Source: Paludibacteraceae bacterium
GTDB taxonomy: Bacteria > Bacteroidota > Bacteroidia > Bacteroidales > Paludibacteraceae
DNA length: 64,000 nucleotides
Direction of reading: 5' to 3'
Assembly: GCA_017451525.1 (NCBI GenBank)
Contig: JAFTOD010000001.1
Location: 401,032 to 465,031 of the forward strand
The first letter of the stretch is position 1. Each line of letters starts with the position of its first letter. Below, piece by piece: positions 38,437 to 54,285 of this stretch. Both the position numbers and the translations under genes were made by a program. The notes under the pieces are model-generated. The model saw only the letters and a program-made list of their open reading frames with translations, did not search any database and had not been told where the DNA came from.

Positions 38437-39408
38437 ATGCTCCGCACCTACAACAAACCCATCTACATCGCCCTACTATCGATACTCACCCTCTGCCTTT
38501 TGTGCGATTATATCCCCGCCTTGGCGGTATTGTCCTCATGGGTTACTCCACCTGTGGCATTGTTTTTCGGTCTCGTTTTCGCACTCACTTGCGGACAGGC
38601 ATATCCCACTTTCAATAAGAATGTGTCTAAGAAACTACTTCAGTATTCCGTCATCGGTTTGGGCTTTGGTATGAACCTGCATGCTTCGTTGGCATCGGGC
38701 AAAGAGGGTATGTTGTTTACTATCGTTTCGGTTTTCGGCACACTCTTGATTGGTATGCTCATCGGCTGCAAACTGCTGAAGATCAACCGCAATACCGCCT
38801 ATCTCATCAGTTCGGGCACGGCTATCTGCGGAGGCAGTGCTATCGCAGCAGTAGGGCCTATCATCAAGGCAAAAGACAGCGATATGTCTATGGCACTCGC
38901 CACTATTTTCATCCTCAACGCTATTGCGCTTTTCCTTTTCCCTGCGTTGGGACATTGGCTGGGCATGACGCAACAGGAGTTCGGCACATGGGCTGCTATC
39001 GCTATCCATGATACTAGTTCTGTGGTAGGCGCAGGCGCAGCGTATGGCGAAGAGGCACTGCAAGTGGCTACCACTATCAAACTCACCCGTGCCTTGTGGA
39101 TTATCCCTTTAGCACTGCTGACAGCGGTCATCTTCCGCAGCGAGGGCAAGAAGATTAGCATCCCATGGTTTATCTTGTTTTTTATTGTTGCTATGTTGTT
39201 GAATACCTATGTACTTACTGATATTCCACAAGTAGGACAATTCATCTATGGTATTGCGCGTAAGGGACTTGTGATTACGATGTTTTTCATCGGCGCATCG
39301 CTTTCTATTGATACAATTAAGTCTGTCGGTATCCGTCCTCTGCTGCAAGGCATTCTCCTCTGGTTGGTCATCAGTGCAGGTTCATTGGCATATATCCTCT
39401 TGCGCTAA
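38437..39408 (+). CDS. YeiH-family putative anion exporter
   Basis: A 323-residue inner-membrane protein with about ten helices, of the YeiH (UPF0324) family: QYSVIGLGFGMNLHASLASGKEGM, IGCKLLKINRNTAYLISSGTAICGGSAIAAVGPIIKAKDSDMSMALATIFILNAIALFLFP, AIAIHDTSSVVGAGAAYGEEAL and GLVITMFFIGASLSID. Members are proposed sulfate or similar exporters; the substrate here is unproved. It follows the FAD oxidoreductase by 39 bp, with a GCCC-GTAA-GGGC mini-hairpin between them. Confidence 0.9.
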   Translation: MLRTYNKPIYIALLSILTLCLLCDYIPALAVLSSWVTPPVALFFGLVFALTCGQAYPTFNKNVSKKLLQYSVIGLGFGMNLHASLASGKEGMLFTIVSVFGTLLIGMLIGCKLLKINRNTAYLISSGTAICGGSAIAAVGPIIKAKDSDMSMALATIFILNAIALFLFPALGHWLGMTQQEFGTWAAIAIHDTSSVVGAGAAYGEEALQVATTIKLTRALWIIPLALLTAVIFRSEGKKISIPWFILFFIVAMLLNTYVLTDIPQVGQFIYGIARKGLVITMFFIGASLSIDTIKSVGIRPLLQGILLWLVISAGSLAYILLR

Positions 39409-39964: not shown

Positions 39965-40021
39965 AAAATGGCGAAAAAACGCCATTTTATTTGCATATCT
40001 GCAAAAAATATCGTACCTTTG
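39965..40021 (+). promoter_or_regulatory. Hairpin-plus-promoter cassette of the HTH-phosphoesterase pair
   Basis: AAAATGGCG (39965-39973)/CGCCATTTT (39980-39988), then TTTG (39990-39993), 20 nt, TACCTTTG (40014-40021). Confidence 0.65.
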
Positions 40022-40089
40022 CAGCCGAATCGACATTCGCTATTCGCGAATTGCGAAAAATCACGTATAATCAACTAATATACAACCAT

Positions 40090-40605
40090 ATGAAACCGCA
40101 AGATATAGTTGTTTTGCTAAAGAAAATAACCTCGCAAGGGAAGGTGCTTTCTGCTAATGGATTAGCTGCTTCGTTAGGTATGAGTGCTTCAACAGTTAGC
40201 GAGTGTTTAGAACGCTGTAAGAAAGCTCAACTCGTTGATCGCAATAAAAAGCGTGTCAACGCTCTTGCGCTGCAAGAGTTTCTCATACATGGCATTCAAT
40301 ATGTATTCCCAACTGAGGCAGGGCGTGTAGGGCGAGGGGTGCCTACGTATATCAGTGCTTCGCCCATCAAAGAGCAACTTTCCAATGACAATGAGAGCTA
40401 TGTATGGCATGATGTCAAAGGTTCTGCGCGCGGTCAGCAGATTCAGCCATTATACAATACTGTCCCTCAAGCCATTCAGGACGACAACGAATTATATCAA
40501 CTATTAGTGATAGTGGATACGCTTCGTATGGGTCGAGCACGCGAAAAGGAAATTGCTGTCGCTGAACTCAACAAACGCATCAACGCTTATGTCAAAAACC
40601 AATAA
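40090..40605 (+). CDS. Winged helix-turn-helix protein
   Basis: Start at ATG 40090 (MKPQDIVVLLKKITSQGK); the longer frame begins upstream of the transcription start. The 171-residue product has an N-terminal winged helix: VLSANGLAASLGMSASTVSECLERCKKAQLVDRNKKRVNALALQEFL. Tyr-rich and charged segments follow with no known domain (IQYVFPTEAGRVGRGVPTYISASPIKEQLSNDNESYVWHDVKGSARGQQIQPLYNTVPQA). It is directly before a metallophosphoesterase gene that starts at or inside its 3' end. A small two-gene module is likely, in which the HTH protein regulates the pair or senses the substrate. Confidence 0.7.
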   Translation: MKPQDIVVLLKKITSQGKVLSANGLAASLGMSASTVSECLERCKKAQLVDRNKKRVNALALQEFLIHGIQYVFPTEAGRVGRGVPTYISASPIKEQLSNDNESYVWHDVKGSARGQQIQPLYNTVPQAIQDDNELYQLLVIVDTLRMGRAREKEIAVAELNKRINAYVKNQ

Positions 40606-40633
40606 CCAACGCTTGCAAGCCATTGCATCAGCC

Positions 40634-41425
40634 ATGCAAGAACTTAAAATACAATTTGTCAGCGACTTGCATTTAGAGTTTGCGCAGAACAGACAGTATC
40701 TGCAAGACCATCCGCTACAAGTGACAGGCGATATACTTCTTATTGCAGGCGATAGCGCGTATCTTGACATGCCTCTGTCGGGACAAGACACCTATAGCGA
40801 TTATACTTTCTGGGACTGGGCATCTGCCAACTATAGCCAAGTGATTGTTTGCCTCGGCAATCATGATTTCTATGGGCATTACGATTTGGCTACTATGCCT
40901 GATGGCTATTGCAAACAGATTCGCCACAACGTGCATGCCTACTACAATAGCGTAGTACACTTGCAGGATACAGATATCATCGTTTCTACGCTTTGGGCGA
41001 AAATTGAACCCCACGATGCTTTCCTTACCGAGCGTAATGTGAGCGACTTCTATCGCATCATGTACAATGGACATCGCTTAACAGCTGAGGACTTTAATCA
41101 CGAGCACGAACGCTGCCTGCAGTTTATCAAAAAAGCAGTAGCGGATAGTCAAGCCAAAACAAAAATCGTACTTACACACCATGTACCTACCCACTTATGT
41201 ACAGCAGAGGAGTTTCGTGGTAGTACTATTAGCGGAGCGTTTACGATAGAATTGGGCGACTATATAGCGGATTCTGGTATTGATTATTGGATATACGGAC
41301 ACTCACACCGCAATATAGATGCGCAGATTGGCACTACGCGCTTGATGAGCAATCAGTTTGGTTACCTCTCGCATGGCGAACCCATACACAATGGATTCAA
41401 CCCCGCACATCATATTACTGTCTAA
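40634..41425 (+). CDS. Calcineurin-like metallophosphoesterase
   Basis: Start taken at ATG 40634 (MQELKIQFVSDLHLEFAQN), which places the first metal motif where the family has it; ATG 40589 would overlap the preceding gene. The 263-residue protein keeps SDLHLEF, LLIAGDSAY, VCLGNHDFYGH, LTHHVPTHLC and YGHSHRNID, so all metal ligands appear intact. Substrate unknown; relatives hydrolyse cyclic nucleotides, nucleotides or DNA. Paired with the winged-helix gene upstream in a module at the edge of the accessory island, which is suggestive of defence or stress but not proven. Confidence 0.8.
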   Translation: MQELKIQFVSDLHLEFAQNRQYLQDHPLQVTGDILLIAGDSAYLDMPLSGQDTYSDYTFWDWASANYSQVIVCLGNHDFYGHYDLATMPDGYCKQIRHNVHAYYNSVVHLQDTDIIVSTLWAKIEPHDAFLTERNVSDFYRIMYNGHRLTAEDFNHEHERCLQFIKKAVADSQAKTKIVLTHHVPTHLCTAEEFRGSTISGAFTIELGDYIADSGIDYWIYGHSHRNIDAQIGTTRLMSNQFGYLSHGEPIHNGFNPAHHITV

Positions 41426-41760
41426 AGATTGAGATATTATCTCAACTATTAGGAATTTCCAAATAGTTCGTCCATTGCCTACGGGGTCCCTTTCATTTCC
41501 ACCATCTGTCTAGTGCTCGGCGCTAATTCGCCGAGCCAATTTCTCATAGTTGGTTCAGTTCTCGCGGCTACCCCCGCGAGTAATTCCGCACCTCTAATCA
41601 GGCACATTGTGCTCTCCAATTTGCGCAATCTTAAAGTACAACTTTAAATTTGCGCACTTTTGCGCCCCTCTTTCTTTGTCATTGTCCCGAATCCCATTCG
41701 GGTATCTCTCCACCTCTAAACTCTAAACTGTAGCGCCTTTGGCGCGTTCTCTAAACAGAT
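41426..41760. other. Non-coding gap with hairpins
   Basis: No gene is seen. It includes GCTCGGC/GCCGAGC (near 41517-41538), CTCGCGGC...CCGCGAG (near 41567-41579) and GCGCCTTTGGCGC flanked by CTCTAAAC spacers (near 41720-41757). Confidence 0.55.
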
Positions 41761-41815
41761 AATGGCGACTTTTTCGCCATTTATTTGCATTTATGCAAAA
41801 ATTGTTGTATCTTTG
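41761..41815 (+). promoter_or_regulatory. Hairpin-plus-promoter cassette upstream of the RhuM gene
   Basis: AATGGCGA/TCGCCATT (41761-41781), TTTG (41784-41787), 20 nt, TATCTTTG (41808-41815). A second promoter follows at 41909. Confidence 0.6.
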
Positions 41816-41877
41816 CGGGCTAAAGAGAAAGAAATAAGAAAAATCAAATAAACGCAAAAAAAATAAACTTTTTTCGA

Positions 41878-41916
41878 CAAACTGACAAGTTTTAGCAGTT
41901 TAATATACTACCTTTG
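41878..41916 (+). promoter_or_regulatory. Palindromic operator and -7 box before the RhuM gene
   Basis: Identical 24-base palindromic segment to 35279-35302; TACCTTTG at 41909-41916, again 7 nt after it. Confidence 0.6.
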
Positions 41917-41944
41917 CACCGTCAAACAAAAAACAAGATGCTTT

Positions 41945-43003
41945 ATGGCTACAAAATCTAAAAAATCCAAAGAAATTACTATTCGCTCGTCTGCAGCGGA
42001 ATACTTAACCTTTGTTTCTGCTATTGGGGATCAGCCTGAGAGCGTCGAACTCCGCTACCAAGATGAAAACATCTGGCTTACCCAGCGCCTCATGGCTGAG
42101 TTGTATGGCGTGGACGTGCGCACAATCAGCGAACACATACAAAAGATTTATGCAGACCACGAATTAGAAGAGGAGGCAACCATCCGGAATTTCCGGATAG
42201 TTCAAACCGAGGGCACTCGTCAAGTCTCTCGCGAGGTGAAGCACTATAGTCTGCAAATGATTATCGCTGTGGGATTTAAGGTGAATAACGAACGTGCTGT
42301 ACAGTTCCGTAAATGGGCTAATGCTGTGGTCAAGGATTATACTATCCAAGGTTGGGTGATGGACACCGAACGTCTCAAGAAAGGTGGTACTATTCTTACG
42401 AAGGACTACTTTGAGAAGCAATTGGAGAAGGTGCGTGAGATACGCCTCTCTGAACGTCGTTTTTACCAAAAAGTTACGGATATTTATGCCACTAGTATTG
42501 ATTATGATCCTACAGCTGCTGCCACGCAGCGCTTCTTTGCGGCGGTGCAAAACAAATTGCACTATGCGGTGCATCAGCATACGGCGGCTGAACTTATTTA
42601 TGAGCGTGCAGATGCTGACAAAGAGCATATGGGATTGACTACTTGGGAAGGTGCACCAGAAGGTAAGATTCATCGCTATGATGTGGTTGTGGCAAAGAAT
42701 TACCTTTCGCACGATGAGTTGCAGGTATTGGCTCGTATTGTCAATGCCTATTTAGATTTTGCAGAGATGCAGGCTATGCGCCAGATTCCTATGACAATGG
42801 CGGACTGGGAGAGGCGTTTGAATGGTTTCTTGACGCTTTGGGATAGGGAGGTGTTGCAAGATGCGGGTCGTATTACGGCAGAACTGGCAAAGGCTAAAGC
42901 AGAAACCGAGTTTGAGAAGTACCGCATTGTCCAAGACCGTTTGTATCAATCAGATTTTGACCATTTTCTGCAATTAGAAATAGAGGTAGAAGATAAAGAA
43001 TAA
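41945..43003 (+). CDS. RhuM-family protein
   Basis: A 352-residue protein matching the RhuM (virulence protein) family: ELRYQDENIWLTQRLMAELYGVDVRTISEHIQKIYADHELEEEATIRNFRIVQTEGTRQVSREVKHYSLQMIIAVGFKVNNERAVQFRKWA, then LTKDYFEKQLEKVREIRLSERRFYQKVTDIYATSIDYDP and a C-terminal NYLSHDELQVLARIVNAYLDFAEMQAMR. The first half resembles a DNA-binding KilA/Bro-like fold. Function is unknown although the family is common in islands and next to restriction systems. Transcribed from two promoters, one with the palindromic operator. Confidence 0.85.
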   Translation: MATKSKKSKEITIRSSAAEYLTFVSAIGDQPESVELRYQDENIWLTQRLMAELYGVDVRTISEHIQKIYADHELEEEATIRNFRIVQTEGTRQVSREVKHYSLQMIIAVGFKVNNERAVQFRKWANAVVKDYTIQGWVMDTERLKKGGTILTKDYFEKQLEKVREIRLSERRFYQKVTDIYATSIDYDPTAAATQRFFAAVQNKLHYAVHQHTAAELIYERADADKEHMGLTTWEGAPEGKIHRYDVVVAKNYLSHDELQVLARIVNAYLDFAEMQAMRQIPMTMADWERRLNGFLTLWDREVLQDAGRITAELAKAKAETEFEKYRIVQDRLYQSDFDHFLQLEIEVEDKE

Positions 43004-43226: not shown

Positions 43227-43289
43227 CCGCCATTTTTTTCAGAAAATGGCGGTATTATTTGCATTTATGCAAAAATTGTTGTAACTTTG
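43227..43289 (+). promoter_or_regulatory. Hairpin-plus-promoter cassette of the five-gene operon
   Basis: Perfect 10-bp stem CCGCCATTTT (43227-43236)/AAAATGGCGG (43243-43252), TTTG (43258-43261), 20 nt, TAACTTTG (43282-43289); leader about 30 nt. Confidence 0.7.
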
Positions 43290-43328
43290 CGGGCTAAATA
43301 GGATTTCTAATAGAGTAATCAGCAAAAA

Positions 43329-44498
43329 ATGGGAAAATTGATTGAATATATTGCACGAGAAACCGATGGAGAACCTTTTGGCTCGTTTAAATATGGTTAT
43401 GATAATGACCCTTCATTACGTATTCCATATGAGGATTTATCTCAACAAATTACTCCTAAACAATATGCGGAGAGCCAAAAGATTCCTACATCACGCGATA
43501 TGACGAAATTGGCTCTACAATTACGCCAATATCCACCTCTCTTTCGTTATTTTCTTGATGGCTCACGTATGGTCTATAAAATAGATGACATACGATATGA
43601 CAAAAAAGTATATCCTTTAATAGCAGGGCAAATATCAGTTGCATGCTGCGAACGTATAATGCAAGATGATGGTGTAAGTTTTGCTGCTTTTCAACATGTA
43701 GCAGAAGAAGCATATTCAGTCTTAGCGTTGCCAAATGCCGCTAATTCCAAAGGTATAGATACATCTGTATTTTTCCGTTCGTTATGTCAAAAGATAAATG
43801 AATTAGAACAAGCAAAACGTAAAAGAATAGATATTAGAAAAATATTGGCATATTCATCATCACAACAAGATAGTTCTTTTGATAAATTAGCGACAGCACG
43901 AATTCAAGATGAGATGATTGATTGTGAAAAAAAGATTGTAGCGCAATTGGTCAGTCAACACAAATTAACGCAAGATGATTATTTGATTAAAGATGGTTCG
44001 CTACAATATCGCACCATTAAGACTGGTGATTATGGGGAAATGAAGAAGATACGCAGTAATTATCAGCGTGTTGTAGGTGTAAGTAAAATGTTTAATCCTA
44101 ATTTAATGCGTGATAATAGGGGGCGTAGTATAGCAGCAGATATTGCTAAATTACCATTATTCCATCGCACGCCCGCTATTATGTGGGAACCTGATCCTGC
44201 TTTTTGTGAAGCAAATTTTGCAATCTGGTATGTACGCATTAGGGAACGAGATAAGACAACTACTCCGTACTCTGGAATACTTAAAATAGAAAAAATGTTA
44301 ATGACGGGAGAAGAAGCTGAATATGGCTTGTCAACAGATGAAGTAGATATGATAACCGCTAATATTATCAATGAACGCAATCCTGTCTGTTATGGCAATG
44401 ATGCACGTTGGGCGAATCATCTCTATCCTGTTTACATGACAGAATGTTATTGCAAAAGTAAGTTTAAAAGTGAATATTACTTCTTAAATATATTCTAA
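43329..44498 (+). CDS. NurA-like nuclease domain protein
   Basis: A 389-residue cytoplasmic protein. Near residue 77 it has FRYFLDGSRMVYKIDD followed by a hydrophobic strand (VYPLIAGQISVACCERI). This is the layout of the NurA nuclease first motif, in which the Asp of DGS binds Mn. The C-terminal part has FHRTPAIMWEPDPAF and FAIWYVRIRERDKTT...GILKIEKM, consistent with the last NurA strands and acidic residue. First gene of a coupled operon; a HerA-like ATPase follows after 4 bp, the classical NurA partner. NurA-HerA pairs resect or process DNA ends. Family assignment is by motif and neighbour, moderately sure. Gene is visibly AT-richer than flanking housekeeping genes. Confidence 0.65.
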   Translation: MGKLIEYIARETDGEPFGSFKYGYDNDPSLRIPYEDLSQQITPKQYAESQKIPTSRDMTKLALQLRQYPPLFRYFLDGSRMVYKIDDIRYDKKVYPLIAGQISVACCERIMQDDGVSFAAFQHVAEEAYSVLALPNAANSKGIDTSVFFRSLCQKINELEQAKRKRIDIRKILAYSSSQQDSSFDKLATARIQDEMIDCEKKIVAQLVSQHKLTQDDYLIKDGSLQYRTIKTGDYGEMKKIRSNYQRVVGVSKMFNPNLMRDNRGRSIAADIAKLPLFHRTPAIMWEPDPAFCEANFAIWYVRIRERDKTTTPYSGILKIEKMLMTGEEAEYGLSTDEVDMITANIINERNPVCYGNDARWANHLYPVYMTECYCKSKFKSEYYFLNIF

Positions 44499-44502
44499 TA
44501 CC

Positions 44503-46158
44503 ATGGAAATTATAGGTAAAATAATTGCTACAGAGAAACTTCCATCTACTATAGAGGAGTTTACCTTTTGGACAAGTAAAGAACGGAAATTAAAGCCGTT
44601 TGATGTCGTTGTGGTAGAGCATCACCTTGAGCAATCTAAAACATTTGGTGTTGTTGAAGAGATTGCCCATATAACAGATGCACCAAGTCCATTAGCAGGG
44701 TATATATCAAGCGATTTTGGACAAGTGGATTCTTCTTCATATACAGATCGCATAGGGATGAACTATGTGAAATGTAAAGTTGTTGGAAACTCTGCTAACA
44801 TTTATATACCAGTTACAGAAGGTAGTTGTGTTCGTTTGGCTTCAGAAGATGAGATACAAATTGCATTAGGATTGGATAATGTGAAAAATCCTATTCCTGC
44901 TGGATATATTCAAATGTATGATGGCGTAGAACAAAAGATTTTACCAGTACATTTCAATTCTAATTTTTTGATAGGTCCAGAAGGAGCACATCTTAATATA
45001 TCAGGTATTTCAGGTTTGGCTTCCAAAACATCATATGCGATGTTTCTCATGAAAGCTTTGCAGGATACTGTGCAAAAAGAAAAACGAGAATCTGTTGCTT
45101 TTATTATGATGAATGTAAAAGGAACTGATTTGCTTACTATTGATGAGAAAAATACTCGTCAAGATGAACTGAATGAGATACAACCAATATATGAAACATT
45201 AGAAATGGATATGAAACCATTCCAACATGTTACATATTATTATCCATATGCTTCTGACGGAACACTCTATACATATGAAAAAAAATCACGTTTGGAAAGT
45301 CGATTAAGGAAACAACAGGCTTTCCAATATAAATATTTGTTTGAATCTCCAGAAGATAAAGAATGTCTAGATTTACTTTTCGCTAATGTTGATGATCCCA
45401 ATGAAACAATAGAGTCTATTATTAATTACATTATCGCGGGAAGTGGTGCGTTTAGAGGATTAGAATCTTGGGAAGATTTTCTCAAAGCATTAAAGGAGCA
45501 AGCTAATCCACAAGAGAAAAGCACACAGGGAAAAGAAATCTCTGTAATGAGTTGGCGTAAGTTCTATCGCTTGTTTAATAAGTGTTATCAAAAAAACAAA
45601 CAAATGTTTACAAACAGTTTAGGCACAACAGGTATACGCTTACGTGATAAAATAGCGGAGATTAAGAATAACGAGGTTATGGTCGTTGATATTTCTAAGT
45701 TGGATGAAGATTCACAAGGTTTTGTATTTGGAGATGTAATGCGCGCTGTATATAACCTTAAACTTAGTTCGGAGCGCGAGGATATTCCAGATCGCATAGT
45801 TATCTTTATTGATGAATTGAATAAATATGCATCAAATGATGTTCCTAAATCCTCTCCTATTCTACGACAATTGCTTGATATAACAGAGCGCGGGCGTTCT
45901 TTAGGCATTGTATTATTTGGTGCAGAACAATTTGTTAGTGACATTCATAAACGTATCAAAGGTAATTGTGCAACGCAAGCATTTGGTCGCACAAATGCAA
46001 TAGAAATTACAAAAGAAGATTTTCGTTTTGTTCCGCAAGTCTACAAGACAATGTTAACACGATTAAAACAGGGAGAATATATCATTCAAAATCCTATATT
46101 CCGTTCCTTACTTAATATTAAATTCCCAAAACCAATATATAAATATCATAACGACTAA
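44503..46158 (+). CDS. HerA-like hexameric ATPase (DUF87/FtsK-HerA superfamily)
   Basis: A 551-residue protein with an N-terminal beta-barrel-like region (about 1-130, HAS-barrel type). The ATPase core has a P-loop region NISGISGLASKTSYAMFLMKAL (about 166-186), in which Ser replaces the glycine usually before Lys-Thr. Walker B IVIFIDELNKYA is at about 432-443, and the arginine-finger-like DITERGRSLGIVLFGAEQ follows. The core is split by a helical insertion (about 200-380). It probably moves DNA for the preceding NurA-like nuclease. Its stop overlaps the next start by one base. Function within this operon is inference. Confidence 0.75.
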   Translation: MEIIGKIIATEKLPSTIEEFTFWTSKERKLKPFDVVVVEHHLEQSKTFGVVEEIAHITDAPSPLAGYISSDFGQVDSSSYTDRIGMNYVKCKVVGNSANIYIPVTEGSCVRLASEDEIQIALGLDNVKNPIPAGYIQMYDGVEQKILPVHFNSNFLIGPEGAHLNISGISGLASKTSYAMFLMKALQDTVQKEKRESVAFIMMNVKGTDLLTIDEKNTRQDELNEIQPIYETLEMDMKPFQHVTYYYPYASDGTLYTYEKKSRLESRLRKQQAFQYKYLFESPEDKECLDLLFANVDDPNETIESIINYIIAGSGAFRGLESWEDFLKALKEQANPQEKSTQGKEISVMSWRKFYRLFNKCYQKNKQMFTNSLGTTGIRLRDKIAEIKNNEVMVVDISKLDEDSQGFVFGDVMRAVYNLKLSSEREDIPDRIVIFIDELNKYASNDVPKSSPILRQLLDITERGRSLGIVLFGAEQFVSDIHKRIKGNCATQAFGRTNAIEITKEDFRFVPQVYKTMLTRLKQGEYIIQNPIFRSLLNIKFPKPIYKYHND

Positions 46159-47717
46159 TGGCTGATACTATTATAGGAAAGAATGTGCTGGAGTCTTTGA
46201 CCCGCAGTATGTATGCAGATAGTAGGTGTATCTATCGCGAGTATATTCAAAATGCAGCAGATCAAATAGATGCGGCGAAGTTAATGTATCCCGAATTAGA
46301 ATATTCTGTTTTTGTAAAAATTGATCCTATTTCTCGTAATATAATTATAGAGGATGATGCAACTGGTGTGTCATCAAAAGATATTAAGAGACTGCTAATA
46401 GATGTTGCACGTTCTCCTAAAATGCGTGGTATAAACAAAGGATTTCGAGGTATAGGGCGCTTAGGTGGTTTAGCATATTGTAAGACATTAAAATTTGAAA
46501 CCTCATATTTTGATGAAGATATCGTATCTATTGTTACATGGGATGCTGTTCGATTAACACAGATTTTAGATAATGATGATGATGACCGAGATGCAGGATC
46601 TGTAATAGATGAAGTAGTTAAAATATCAAAGGAACAAAAGGAGGAACATTGCGACAAACACTATTTCAGGGTTATTATGGAGGACGTTACGGATGATAAA
46701 TTATTGAATGAAAAAGACATCCGAGATTATCTTGCAATGGTTGCGCCAGTAGATTATTCTAATCATTTCGCATACAGAAGGGATATTTATAATTTCATGA
46801 AAGAAAAGAATCTTCATTTGGATTGCTATAATATCTATGTTGGAGATAGCCAACTTTCTAAAGACTATACTATGTCTATTTTAGATCAGAGCGGACAAAT
46901 AGAAGACACTATTACTGGAATTGAATTTTGGTATGAAACGAATTCAGAAGGTCTGCCAATGTATTGGGGATGGTATTCCATTTCAAGCCTTAAAGGTATT
47001 TTAAATAAAACTAATAAAGCGCGCAATATACGTTTGCGCTGCGAGAATATCCAATTAGGTGATGAAACTACATGTTATCGTTTTATGCCAACAGGCGATA
47101 AAGCACGTTTTGTTAGATACTTCTTCGGGGAAATACATGTTTTACCTACAAGTAAATTGGTTCCAGATTCTCATCGTGACTATCTGCGAGTTGATGCGGG
47201 ATTAAAAGAGTTTGAGAACAATATTGAGTCCCATTTGTTGGAATTGGAAAAACTATGCTACGGAGCCTCTGATGCTCGTAAGACAGATAAAATAATAAAA
47301 CAGTCTGAAGAAAGAGCTACTGCAATACAGAAGAGAATAGAAAAAGGTGTAACAAGTGCTGTGCAAAGGCAAAAATATGACGAAGATTTACAAAAATTAC
47401 ACATAGCACGTGCAAAAGCAGAAAAAAAGTTAAGTAAAATACATCAGGATTGGCAAGCAAATGGAAGTCCTTTAATAAACATGTTTTCCCCTGTAGGCAT
47501 ACAATTGCCACAACATCCTATTCCACAATTACCAAATACAGTTCTACAACCAATAAAGAATATCAAGCTTCGAACGGATGATAAACGATATGATAAATTT
47601 CAACCAAAAGAAAAAGAATTGATTCTTGAAATTTACAATATAATTGAGCAAACTCTTAATAATGAAAAAGAGCGCGAAGCATTGATTGATAAGATTGAAA
47701 AAGAGATTACAAAATGA
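46158..47717 (+). CDS. Hsp90-like GHKL ATPase
   Basis: A 519-residue protein with a GHKL (Hsp90/MutL-like) ATP site in the first 110 residues. The N-box has REYIQNAADQID (Glu28, Asn32), then IIIEDDATGVSS (Asp66/67) and NKGFRGIGRLGGLAYC as the G2 loop. A middle domain with a conserved-looking LRCENIQLGD and FFGEIHVL follows, then a coiled coil (about 385-435, with KRIEKGVTSAVQRQKYDEDLQKLHIARAKAEKKL). GHKL ATPases of this type act as ATP-gated clamps or chaperones and occur in several defence islands. Tight coupling (1-bp overlap upstream, 4-bp overlap downstream) ties it to HerA and the radical SAM enzyme. Confidence 0.75.
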   Translation: MADTIIGKNVLESLTRSMYADSRCIYREYIQNAADQIDAAKLMYPELEYSVFVKIDPISRNIIIEDDATGVSSKDIKRLLIDVARSPKMRGINKGFRGIGRLGGLAYCKTLKFETSYFDEDIVSIVTWDAVRLTQILDNDDDDRDAGSVIDEVVKISKEQKEEHCDKHYFRVIMEDVTDDKLLNEKDIRDYLAMVAPVDYSNHFAYRRDIYNFMKEKNLHLDCYNIYVGDSQLSKDYTMSILDQSGQIEDTITGIEFWYETNSEGLPMYWGWYSISSLKGILNKTNKARNIRLRCENIQLGDETTCYRFMPTGDKARFVRYFFGEIHVLPTSKLVPDSHRDYLRVDAGLKEFENNIESHLLELEKLCYGASDARKTDKIIKQSEERATAIQKRIEKGVTSAVQRQKYDEDLQKLHIARAKAEKKLSKIHQDWQANGSPLINMFSPVGIQLPQHPIPQLPNTVLQPIKNIKLRTDDKRYDKFQPKEKELILEIYNIIEQTLNNEKEREALIDKIEKEITK

Positions 47718-49621
47718 GCCGTAAGGTTTTATTAATAGAGCCAAATTATAAGAATAAGTTTCCTCCTATTGGATTAATGAAAATGGCTACGTATTTCCGA
47801 ATGCGTGGCGATGATGTTATTTTCTTTAAAGGTGAATTAAAGGAATTTCTATTAGATTGGTTAACGAGTTTGTGTATTAATAAATTCGTTGCTATAGATG
47901 ACACTATAAATTGGCGTTTAAGAGGAGATAAAATAAAGCAATATATAAAGAGAGGGCAAAAATCGGATTTCTCTGCCATTGGATTATACGAATCGCAATA
48001 TGAAGTATTATTATATCCGTGGATAGATCAATATAGAAAAGAGTTCAAAACAGGAAATTTATCTGATTCTTCAAAATTTGATTTTGTTGGTGTAACTACT
48101 CTATTTACATTTTATTGGGATATAACTATTAAAACAATAGAGTTTGCGAAAACCCTTGTTAAAGATATTAATCGCTTGCAAGTCGGAGGTGTATTGGCAT
48201 CTATTCAACCTGAAGAGATTTACGAGGCAACAGGTATAAAACCTCATTGTGGAACATTACATTCAAAAGGAGATATTGATCCAGATAATAACGAGATTAT
48301 AGATAATTTACCACTGGATTATTCCATTTTGGATGAAATAGATTATGTCTATCCAGATAATAACGCCTACTTTAGTTATACAACTCGTGGCTGCATTCGT
48401 AATTGTGCTTTTTGTGCAGTTAAAACATTAGAGCCAAATTATATTGATTATATTCCATTAAAGGAACGTATCAATCGTACACGCAGACTTTATGGAGAAC
48501 AGCAAAATTTATTGCTAATGGATAATAATGTCATGGCATCTCAGCAATTCATGCAGATTATCCAAGATATAAAAGATTGTGGATTTAAAGAAGGTGATAA
48601 ATATATAGAAACAAATCAGTATGATTTAGCAATTCGCAATCTTCGTTTACATATAAATGATCGTGCTTATACGCGTAAAGCATTCAAGTTGTTACAAACT
48701 CTAACGGAGATGAAACGCTTTTCGGAAGATGAGCGCACGGAGATATATACTACACGCGACAAATTTGGTCTGTTATCTTTAGATACGTGTACGCGTGAGG
48801 CCTTAATAAAATCATATCATATTTTTGCACCATATTTTACAAAACGTTATTCTGGCAGTAAAGGCAAACGTCGTATTATTGATTTTAATCAAGGAGTTGA
48901 TGCGCGTTTATTTACCAATGAGATTGTAAAAGCACTAAGTGAAGTTGCCATTCGACCATTACGTATAGCTTTTGATGATATTAAAACGCAACCACAATAT
49001 CTTAATGCAATAGAGCTTAGTATAAATAACGGATTAAGGGATTTTTCTAATTATTTGCTTTATAATTTTCAAGACAAACCAGAGGATTTATACGAACGCA
49101 TGCGCATCAATGTAGATTTGTGTGAGCAGTACAATGTTAATATATATTCTTTTCCTATGAAATATCATCCAATCCGAGGGGAGCATAGTCATGATAGAGA
49201 TTATATAGGTAAATATTGGAATCGAAAATACATCCGTGCAGTACAAGCAATTTTGAATGCAACAAAAGGTAAAATAGGTCGCGGAAAGTCTTTCTTTGAA
49301 AAAGCATTTGGTAAAAATATAGAAGAATACAAAGAATTACTTATTATGCCTGAAACATTTATATTATATCGTTTCTTTTTTGAATATATTGGGTACACAG
49401 ATGCTTGGCGTGAGGAGATGAAGCAACTATCTGTTGCTGAAATGGAAGAATTACAGCCTCTTATTTTTCAAAACGACTTTAACAATATAGAATCATTAAC
49501 TACGAATAAAAAGTTACTGCACATTTTGTCATATTACAAGAATTATCGCTATGAAATTATAGATTCTACATCTGAATTATATAGGCGCAAAAAAGAGTTT
49601 GATGCTTTAACCTTAAAATGA
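47714..49621 (+). CDS. Radical SAM protein with B12-binding-like N-terminal domain
   Basis: A 635-residue protein. The N-terminal part (VLLIEPNYKNKFPPIGLMKMATYFRMRGDDV, VGVTTLFTFYWDITIKTIEFAKTL) resembles cobalamin-binding/Rossmann domains of MiaB-like radical SAM enzymes. The 4Fe-4S motif CIRNCAFC has Cys at about 227, 231 and 234 (CxxxCxxC). A large insertion (about 275-385) precedes IDFNQGVDARLFTNEI and RIAFDD, the later TIM-barrel strands; QYNVNIYSFPMKYHPI follows. The substrate could be DNA, RNA or protein; in context a nucleic-acid modification is an attractive but unproved guess. ATGA overlap with both neighbours. Confidence 0.78.
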   Translation: MSRKVLLIEPNYKNKFPPIGLMKMATYFRMRGDDVIFFKGELKEFLLDWLTSLCINKFVAIDDTINWRLRGDKIKQYIKRGQKSDFSAIGLYESQYEVLLYPWIDQYRKEFKTGNLSDSSKFDFVGVTTLFTFYWDITIKTIEFAKTLVKDINRLQVGGVLASIQPEEIYEATGIKPHCGTLHSKGDIDPDNNEIIDNLPLDYSILDEIDYVYPDNNAYFSYTTRGCIRNCAFCAVKTLEPNYIDYIPLKERINRTRRLYGEQQNLLLMDNNVMASQQFMQIIQDIKDCGFKEGDKYIETNQYDLAIRNLRLHINDRAYTRKAFKLLQTLTEMKRFSEDERTEIYTTRDKFGLLSLDTCTREALIKSYHIFAPYFTKRYSGSKGKRRIIDFNQGVDARLFTNEIVKALSEVAIRPLRIAFDDIKTQPQYLNAIELSINNGLRDFSNYLLYNFQDKPEDLYERMRINVDLCEQYNVNIYSFPMKYHPIRGEHSHDRDYIGKYWNRKYIRAVQAILNATKGKIGRGKSFFEKAFGKNIEEYKELLIMPETFILYRFFFEYIGYTDAWREEMKQLSVAEMEELQPLIFQNDFNNIESLTTNKKLLHILSYYKNYRYEIIDSTSELYRRKKEFDALTLK

Positions 49622-49623
49622 TA

Positions 49624-50238
49624 ATGGCTGAAACAATAAACATACAGCAAAACAATTTAGTTGTTGCAGGGGATTTTCATTACCATGCAGCTAATAATGA
49701 TGCCCCACAAGAAGATTTGGGTGAGGATGTATTGGATAATTTAATTTTTGGTAAATCATTTGATTCTAACCAGAAATTATTATTGTTACGTAAAGAAATA
49801 GCTAATTCTATCGAGTTGGGTTCTGCAACGCCTCTCTATACTGATACTATCGGATTGGATAGAGCTAAGATTGATCCACAAATGAAGAATGAGTGGTTCT
49901 ATATTTTAGCAGCATTAAAAGACTCGAATATACTAAGAAGTAAACCAATAACAGATCGGGAATTCATTGAACAGATGATAAACTTCTTTCCGTTATTACC
50001 AAATCTAAATTTTGAAACATCGGAAGAATTTCAAAAAGGGATGCGACAGTTTGCACAATCTATTTCGGTAGAAAGGCGCAAATGGAAAATCAAAGGTAGT
50101 GTCGTGCGATTGGTAGATTTACAAGCAAAAAAACATCTACTTACACAATTAAGTAGTGAAAAGATTTCACGTATTTTTAGAATAGCTTTCCCTTTATATT
50201 CAGAACTTTCTAGATTATTACAAACTGTAACGAAGTAA
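49624..50238 (+). CDS. Unknown protein, last gene of the NurA-HerA-GHKL-radical SAM operon
   Basis: A 204-residue protein; ATG 49624 is preferred, though ATG 49618 overlaps the preceding stop (ATGA). The N-terminus ETINIQQNNLVVAGDFHYHA looks like a short beta-hairpin tag of the kind found in some NTPase- or effector-associated proteins. The remainder is helical (VLDNLIFGKSFDSNQKLLLLRKEIANSIEL, KNEWFYILAALKDSNIL) with no recognised catalytic motif. It may be an adaptor or regulator for the four enzymes upstream. Confidence 0.6.
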   Translation: MAETINIQQNNLVVAGDFHYHAANNDAPQEDLGEDVLDNLIFGKSFDSNQKLLLLRKEIANSIELGSATPLYTDTIGLDRAKIDPQMKNEWFYILAALKDSNILRSKPITDREFIEQMINFFPLLPNLNFETSEEFQKGMRQFAQSISVERRKWKIKGSVVRLVDLQAKKHLLTQLSSEKISRIFRIAFPLYSELSRLLQTVTK

Positions 50239-50252
50239 AATTATATTTACCT

Positions 50253-50295
50253 AATAAGCCACTGCAAACACAATTTTGCAGTGGCTTATTCTTAT
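50253..50295 (+). terminator. Terminator of the five-gene operon
   Basis: A 14-bp stem AATAAGCCACTGCA (50253-50266)/TGCAGTGGCTTATT (50277-50290) followed by T-rich sequence. Confidence 0.9.
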
Positions 50296-53610: not shown

Positions 53611-53742
53611 TCCCCATCCATATTCATAATTACCCACACATATCCTCACACACCTATACATACCCACACATTCTCACACATACTCATACATATCTATCCC
53701 CCCCCACACACACTTATACATATTTATACACACTCACACATG

Positions 53743-53800
53743 GCTTGCTCCTTTTTTCTCACAAAAAAGCAGTAAACCAAACAAAAAAAAGGAGCAAGTC
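53743..53800. repeat. Palindromic repeat P1 (class I)
   Basis: GCTTGCTCCTTTTTT arm and AAAAAAAAGGAGCAAG arm around an interior with AAAAGCAGTAAACC. Confidence 0.85.
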
Positions 53801-53967
53801 AAAAACAAAGAATAATCCCTCCATCTCCACACAAAGAAACAAATCATACATACCCATACATTTATACACACTCATACATATTTATTCACACCCACACATA
53901 TTTATACATACCCATACATTTATACACACCCACACATTCTCACACATACTTAATATACTCACATATA

Positions 53968-54024
53968 GCTTGCTCCTTTTTTCTCACAAAAAAGCAGTAA
54001 ACCAAACAAAAAAAGGAGCAAGTC
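53968..54024. repeat. Palindromic repeat P2 (class I)
   Basis: Same arms and interior as P1, one base shorter. Confidence 0.85.
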
Positions 54025-54206
54025 AAAGATGAAATCATAAAAACCGCATCCACCACATATAAAACCCCAGAAAATACAATTAATTTGCACTTTTCTCTCC
54101 AATATGACAAGAAAAATCACCTCATCATCCAGCAAGATACAAGCCAACAACTCCGACAATTGCTGATTGATATGATATAATCCCTCCATCTCCACACAAA
54201 GAAACA
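54025..54206. other. Spacer with a short Lys-rich open stretch
   Basis: Between P2 and the third microsatellite. Plus-strand translation gives a fragment with TRKITSSSSKIQANNSDNC, possibly a decayed 3' end of a gene ending near 54179; not supported as a gene. Confidence 0.3.
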
Positions 54207-54285
54207 AATCATACATACCCATACACATTTATACACACTCATACATAGCTATACCCCCACACACACTTATATACACTCATACATA

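Follow-up and report, generated by a model that had tools for sequence, protein, structure and literature searches.

Related systems and the Paludibacteraceae cassette

HerA-NurA pairs move along DNA and degrade it, and such a machine is already represented in defence by TdpAB of TdpABC, the phosphorothioate-based defence of thermophiles. We take TdpABC to be the nearest defence analogue of a cassette in a Paludibacteraceae bacterium, located in a 64,000-nucleotide stretch of assembly GCA_017451525.1 (contig JAFTOD010000001.1, positions 401,032 to 465,031; hereafter the window, whose numbering is used throughout). The cassette comprises genes A (predicted NurA-fold nuclease), B (HerA-family ATPase), C (Hsp90-type GHKL ATPase) and D (radical S-adenosylmethionine, or radical SAM, enzyme), followed in this genome by a fifth gene, E. 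A-B-C-D is a conserved cassette, patchily distributed in distant bacteria and some phages. This gut-bacterium cassette would seem to be a new form of mark-and-cut defence against foreign DNA, a variant of a known theme: NurA-HerA defence is known from TdpAB, PADLOC matches are partial, and searches of one open library listed no description of the gene set. With a probability of roughly 0.5, it is a mobile, modification-linked restriction cassette in which NurA-HerA degrades unmarked DNA and C-D occupies the position of the marking module.

No TdpC-like enzyme was recognised among the A to E proteins, GHKL and radical SAM genes being present instead, and searches of Pfam and NCBIfam up to E 1, which included no TdpC-specific profile, gave no resemblance to a PP-loop enzyme among these five. 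B belongs to the HerA family, but TdpA is not among its sequence matches up to E 1. The best match of both A and B in profile and structure searches was the HerA-NurA of Deinococcus radiodurans (PDB 7f6d), by its title a two-protein complex with neither a radical SAM nor a GHKL partner, unlike the cassette. Type IIG-NurA-HerA-methyltransferase loci (L230, L244-L246 and the broken L247; L and G numbers are our handles for loci and genomes) have genes of the A and B families in matching order, with DNA methyltransferases where the cassette has C-D. They may represent an unnamed restriction system; we know of no name for them.

PbeABCD, the CxC-ABC/DndE systems, co-occur with phosphorothioation or methylation genes, and the accessible part of the source mentions radical SAM once, concerning DndC (PMC10853773). 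D lies behind PbeA/PbeC-type genes in three loci, one of which (L138) additionally encodes C and a DndB-like protein, whereas the effector of the cassette is NurA-HerA instead; PbeA-D gave zero matches in the five window proteins and four neighbours. The likeness to MADS is a partial match of B to PADLOC mad8 (E 1.5e-12), with no other mad gene among nine window proteins scanned. HerA-DUF4297 and Nezha (Sir2-HerA) combine a HerA motor with an effector, as the cassette does, but the effectors differ, and the accessible part of PMC12948488 names no GHKL or radical SAM component. Against A-E, PADLOC-DB 2023 gave partial matches only (mad8, HerA, weak LeoBC and weak JAB). The first-pass annotation of the window knew no named defence system with this gene set, and we likewise found no description of the A-D set in one open library, where papers combining 'radical SAM' with 'HerA', PMC12926258 and PMC11326445 among them, stand unassessed; PMC12839542 makes no mention of radical SAM, HSP90, GHKL, NurA or the HerA family.

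Protein identities, conserved order and exchange of partners

The assignment of A to the NurA fold, with predicted nuclease activity, and of B, encoded beside it, to the HerA-family ATPases is settled by profile and structure searches; in the domain library, A has only a chance-level match (0.22) and B reaches only E 0.61 against DUF87. Structures were predicted for A and D. Among the aligned representatives (A 39/39, B 36/36, C 30/58, D 51/54, E 11/11), A keeps D77, E200, K253 and H364 in all 39 sequences and D222 in 38; D77, D222, E200 and H364 presumably correspond to the known NurA catalytic residues. K175, T176, D437, E438, R463 and R465 of B are kept in 36/36. Domain search (HATPase_c_3, E 4.2e-6) and alignment both place GHKL nucleotide-binding motifs in C, with E28, N32, D35, D66 and G70 kept in 30/30. 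D pairs a B12-like domain with a SAM barrel; its matches to Radical_SAM (E 0.0023) and B12-binding (E 0.0014) each fall below the family cut-off, and its CxxxCxxC motif (C227, C231, C234) is kept in 51/51. The DxHxxG cobalamin ligand is absent from residues 1-190 of D, as it is from some enzymes of the B12-domain radical SAM fold, and the D profile drew one irrelevant match from PDB sequences up to E 1. The first-pass annotation had called these four proteins NurA-like, HerA-like, Hsp90-like GHKL and radical SAM, and all four identities are borne out; the NurA fold, which it had left to structure prediction, was not rejected, and the acidic active site is conserved.

A scan for D across 84,980 species genomes yielded 60 loci, and other genome searches, phages and plasmids brought the D-sampled set to 84 loci after the omission of duplicates and short fragments (L001-L012, L014, L016-L027, L094, L097-L110, L117-L134, L145, L146) and, by rule, of loci with no D of 350 aa (L036, L037, L144). 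A, B and a GHKL gene occur in 51 of the 64 loci with at least 5.5 kb 5' of D, with a strict ABCD ending in 44; in L032 the GHKL gene is of a second type, C', preceded by an HNH-like gene. The conservation of A-D in other genomes argues against a chance arrangement. Missing synteny elsewhere and universal conservation in core positions had been named among the findings that would refute the first-pass proposal: the order recurs, and in an even, order-wide sample of 393 genomes including its own, D was found in 14 (E 1e-30), B in nine (E 1e-20) and both in eight. The ninth B (G334, without D) is located at the end of its contig. D is found without B in six genomes: one copy is in a C'-X-D arrangement (G368), one is with C only, split (G117), one is at a contig start, preceded by an OLD-like AAA gene and a second GHKL gene (G143), one is at a contig edge (G243) and two are fragments (G423, G354).

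Across 51 loci with near-full-length genes (not the same 51 as above), the A-D proteins show co-variation of pairwise identity beyond all 500 permutations, to which shared descent contributes. The nearest D, 99% identical, belongs to another Paludibacteraceae metagenome-assembled genome (MAG; L038). In L039, L041 and L042, DNA homology to the window is confined to 43317-49602, from just 5' of A to the end of D, excluding E. Next to the operon, three same-genus genomes have only the gene at 38437-39408 in common with the window, and the empty-site comparison with them was unsuccessful. A-D is unsplit in the cultured Phocaeicola barnesiae DSM 18169 (L066) and Prevotella ruminicola KHT3 (L063). 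C is split in L048, where a RhuM-like gene (by eye) lies 3' of D, and in L029 (3793-7074) the HerA gene is in two pieces with a 429-aa antisense open reading frame (ORF) in between.

The position after D is variable. Among 46 ABCD loci whose contigs continue for at least 1.5 kb past D, the gene within 130 bp of D is E in 10, a gene for S, a large protein, in five, a cyclase-like gene in one, a second GHKL gene in one and another gene in 16; the remaining 13 have no ORF of at least 80 aa there. E is therefore accessory rather than core, and the five-gene system proposed in the first-pass annotation stands as A-B-C-D without E; the five-gene unit was rejected. E matches the C-terminal region of a protein family (mostly 337-356 aa) that is located after D in some loci, and its profile gave two chance-level PDB matches up to E 10. 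S follows ABCD in some loci (L030 6510-9110, L029, L063, L065, L068) and heads operons of PbeA/PbeC-type genes and radical SAM in others (L137, L140), with weak alphaCTD and sigma-4 matches in one member (L030). In L043, an AbiP2 reverse transcriptase (3e-182) overlaps D by 4 bp; the label of this contig is Gastranaerophilales MAG, and its D falls within the Bacteroidota rows of the tree, which casts doubt on the binning. A cyclase-like gene and then a GHKL gene follow the radical SAM gene in L080 (11912-14151) and L092 (11646-14307).

The partners of NurA-HerA are exchanged between loci. B was found in 9/299 genomes of the phylum of Roseburia faecis and 4/198 of the phylum of a Geobacter MAG (13/497 in total), and D in 6/299 and 5/198. 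D adjoins B in six of these 13 loci (G452, G455, G543, G709, G454, G905), Type IIG and/or DNA methyltransferase genes take the place of D in another six, and one (G808) is unassigned. The order Type IIG - A - B - DNA methyltransferase occurs in G711, G482, G627 and the broken G749, and also on viral contig L230; Type IIG follows B in G739 and G775. Eight proteins of the restriction-modification loci and L230 were checked against Pfam and four of those against PADLOC; IIG in G482, G627 and G749 and the G749 methyltransferase piece were assigned by likeness alone. The B tree groups by partner (support 100/98 for radical SAM rows, 88/96 for IIG rows and 100/98 for SbcCD rows), with SbcCD rows and L116 on long branches.

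Five of six plasmid records with B were inspected, one lacking annotation. In the Streptomyces, Aulosira, Chlorohelix and Sphaerospermopsis plasmids (L250-L253), B relatives are followed by SbcD- and SbcC/SMC-type genes, and a gene of NurA-like length (judged by length only) precedes in three of the four. In L243 (1927-7885), Type IIG follows NurA-HerA, and a 536-aa protein encoded two genes further on shows a trace of the radical SAM profile (14 bits).

C and D also occur in other contexts. D is present in 12 plasmid records, all alphaproteobacterial; in the four inspected, it is flanked by a DGQHR (DndB-like) gene on one side and a GHKL gene on the other, the gene ends abutting or overlapping, with PIN-like and GHKL genes nearby in three and a helicase and ParB-like gene in two. 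L138 has the order large protein (1122 aa, no match by the S profile), PbeA, PbeC, a 151-aa gene (weak dnd_assoc_4 match, 1.2e-4), D, C, a small gene and DndB-like. The order in L137 and L140, where C was not seen, is S, PbeA-type, PbeC-type, a small gene and D; the tests for PbeA covered L137 and L138, and those for PbeC L138 and L140. A second module places X (320-335 aa) and C' (~550 aa) beside the same radical SAM gene, with or without A-B (L015 3520-6153, L032, L034, L059, L075, L082, L085; the L075 contig holds only X and D). X weakly matches NCBIfam NF047698 (3.6e-7, below cut-off), and its candidacy as a DndB relative was unsupported (profile comparison probability 0.1). In L033 (1-6589), two GHKL genes flank an AAA_15 (OLD-like) gene and an uncharacterised gene, followed by radical SAM.

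Operon layout and surroundings

All five genes are co-directional, and the ORF coordinates (Table 1) agree with the junctions first described: a 4-bp gap at A/B, a 1-bp overlap at B/C and 4-bp overlaps at C/D and D/E. The strong terminator and the AT-richness also hold, as the hairpin reaches -23.6 kcal/mol (z -8.1; equally stable shuffles 0/200) and GC is 0.32-0.38 across the operon against 0.40-0.53 in the flanks at 36-43 kb and 50-56 kb (2-kb windows). The repeat-rich island holds for the surroundings alone: Tandem Repeats Finder gave 16 rows in 36000-58000 and zero between 39583 and 51726. The tandem repeats at 53619-54283 are degenerate, and their periods range from 10 to 38 bp. The putative promoter box TAACTTTG was matched by eye to TAnnTTTG, which we take to be the Bacteroidota -7 consensus. 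The region 5' of the operon (39991-43003) encodes a winged-helix protein (PADLOC PDC-M21A, 1.1e-44), a metallophosphoesterase (PDC-S10, 2.8e-8) and a RhuM protein (PDC-S05, 4.2e-151).

Table 1. Features of the operon in window coordinates
Feature	Position	Strand	Length	Basis
Putative promoter-like -7 box, Bacteroidota type, TAACTTTG	43282..43289	+		by eye
Gene A, NurA-fold nuclease (predicted)	43329..44498	+	389 aa	ORF, profile search, structure, alignment
Gene B, HerA-family ATPase	44503..46158	+	551 aa	ORF, profile search, alignment, PADLOC mad8
Gene C, Hsp90-type GHKL ATPase	46158..47717	+	519 aa	domain search, alignment
Gene D, radical SAM enzyme with B12-binding-like N-domain	47714..49621	+	635 aa	domain search, alignment
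Gene E, accessory protein	49618..50238	+	206 aa	profile search, locus comparison
Intrinsic terminator hairpin	50253..50290 (about)	+		folding versus shuffles

Possible functions of the cassette

A (nuclease) and B (translocase) would assemble into a motor-nuclease that degrades invading DNA. C and D would form a second module that marks host DNA chemically, or controls such marking, so that A-B would spare that DNA; in other words, C-D would supply a self mark or license A-B. DNA methyltransferases hold this place in a neighbouring clade of that NurA-HerA family, as does TdpC in TdpABC. A role of the cassette against foreign DNA is probable, and the odds that C-D does the marking are about even. 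The first-pass annotation had proposed a modification or sensing module coupled to a nuclease-translocase, possibly anti-phage; this is partly supported, by conserved order and partner exchange, and the five-gene extent did not hold. More tentatively, GHKL-radical SAM could be an undescribed DNA-marking module, probably with new base or backbone chemistry, that has joined NurA-HerA and PbeA-PbeC, two unrelated restriction machines at the least, in place of methyltransferases or phosphorothioation enzymes.

Several observations weigh against the restriction reading. No target-recognition protein is evident in A-D, and no DNA-modifying enzyme with a GHKL ATPase component is known to us. The absence of DndC rests on the cassette's own genome, 84% complete, where the family (TIGR03183) was not found at E 1e-3, and on a set of six searched genomes of which three are Pbe-type; of the 14 control genomes, five gave matches below the cut-off and zero above it, so that a true DndC control was not seen. 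D occurs in genomes without A-B, for example with C' and X in L034, and stands alone in 64/84 viral loci among the matches listed, with short flanks and many weak or partial matches. The C-D co-variation is the lowest of the pairs (0.56), and shared descent alone could yield such correlations. The join of the radical SAM and IIG clades in the B tree has modest support (83/83), and B relatives sit beside SbcD and SbcC on four plasmids.

This last neighbourhood, together with the D. radiodurans HerA-NurA as the best structural match of A, would suit a DNA end-processing or repair module, like HerA-NurA with Mre11-Rad50. Such a function is improbable, as the SbcCD-linked B rows form a separate, long-branched clade, the type in the window is patchy and also found on viral contigs, and no GHKL or radical SAM role in resection is known to us. 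A less remote alternative, though still an unlikely one, keeps the defence role and makes C-D a sensing or signalling module: GHKL would sense phage, and a small molecule or protein modification made by D would switch A-B on. It leaves unexplained the methyltransferase link of the same NurA-HerA family in the neighbouring clade and the presence of radical SAM-GHKL in a Pbe-type operon and beside DndB-like proteins.

A selfish gene set of phages or mobile elements, serving replication, recombination or exclusion of rival elements, is quite improbable. The viral scan gave zero matches with the D sequence alone; with the D alignment (best 80 matches), ABCD was found on four viral contigs among the matches listed, and there is an unverified 8.9-kb phage record with ABCD (L115). 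In Marinitoga camini virus 1 (L116 5866-9692), NurA, HerA and a short radical SAM gene lie side by side, with no GHKL gene found. Most loci, however, are in bacterial contigs, although the sampling was mostly of bacterial genomes, and exclusion of rival elements would count as defence anyway. Radical SAM enzymes are textbook agents of peptide maturation, so D might modify E or another peptide; this is the most far-fetched possibility, as E follows D in so few ABCD loci and A-C contain nothing that fits peptide biosynthesis.

There is a real chance that the cassette is more than a variant of a known theme. If C-D senses instead of marking, the genes would still constitute a recurrent, uncharacterised defence-like cassette with four conserved catalytic sites. 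If C-D marks DNA, bacterial immunity would include DNA modification by a radical-SAM route, beyond methylation, phosphorothioation and deazapurines, and the mark would be directly searchable in cultured carriers by mass spectrometry or in nanopore reads.

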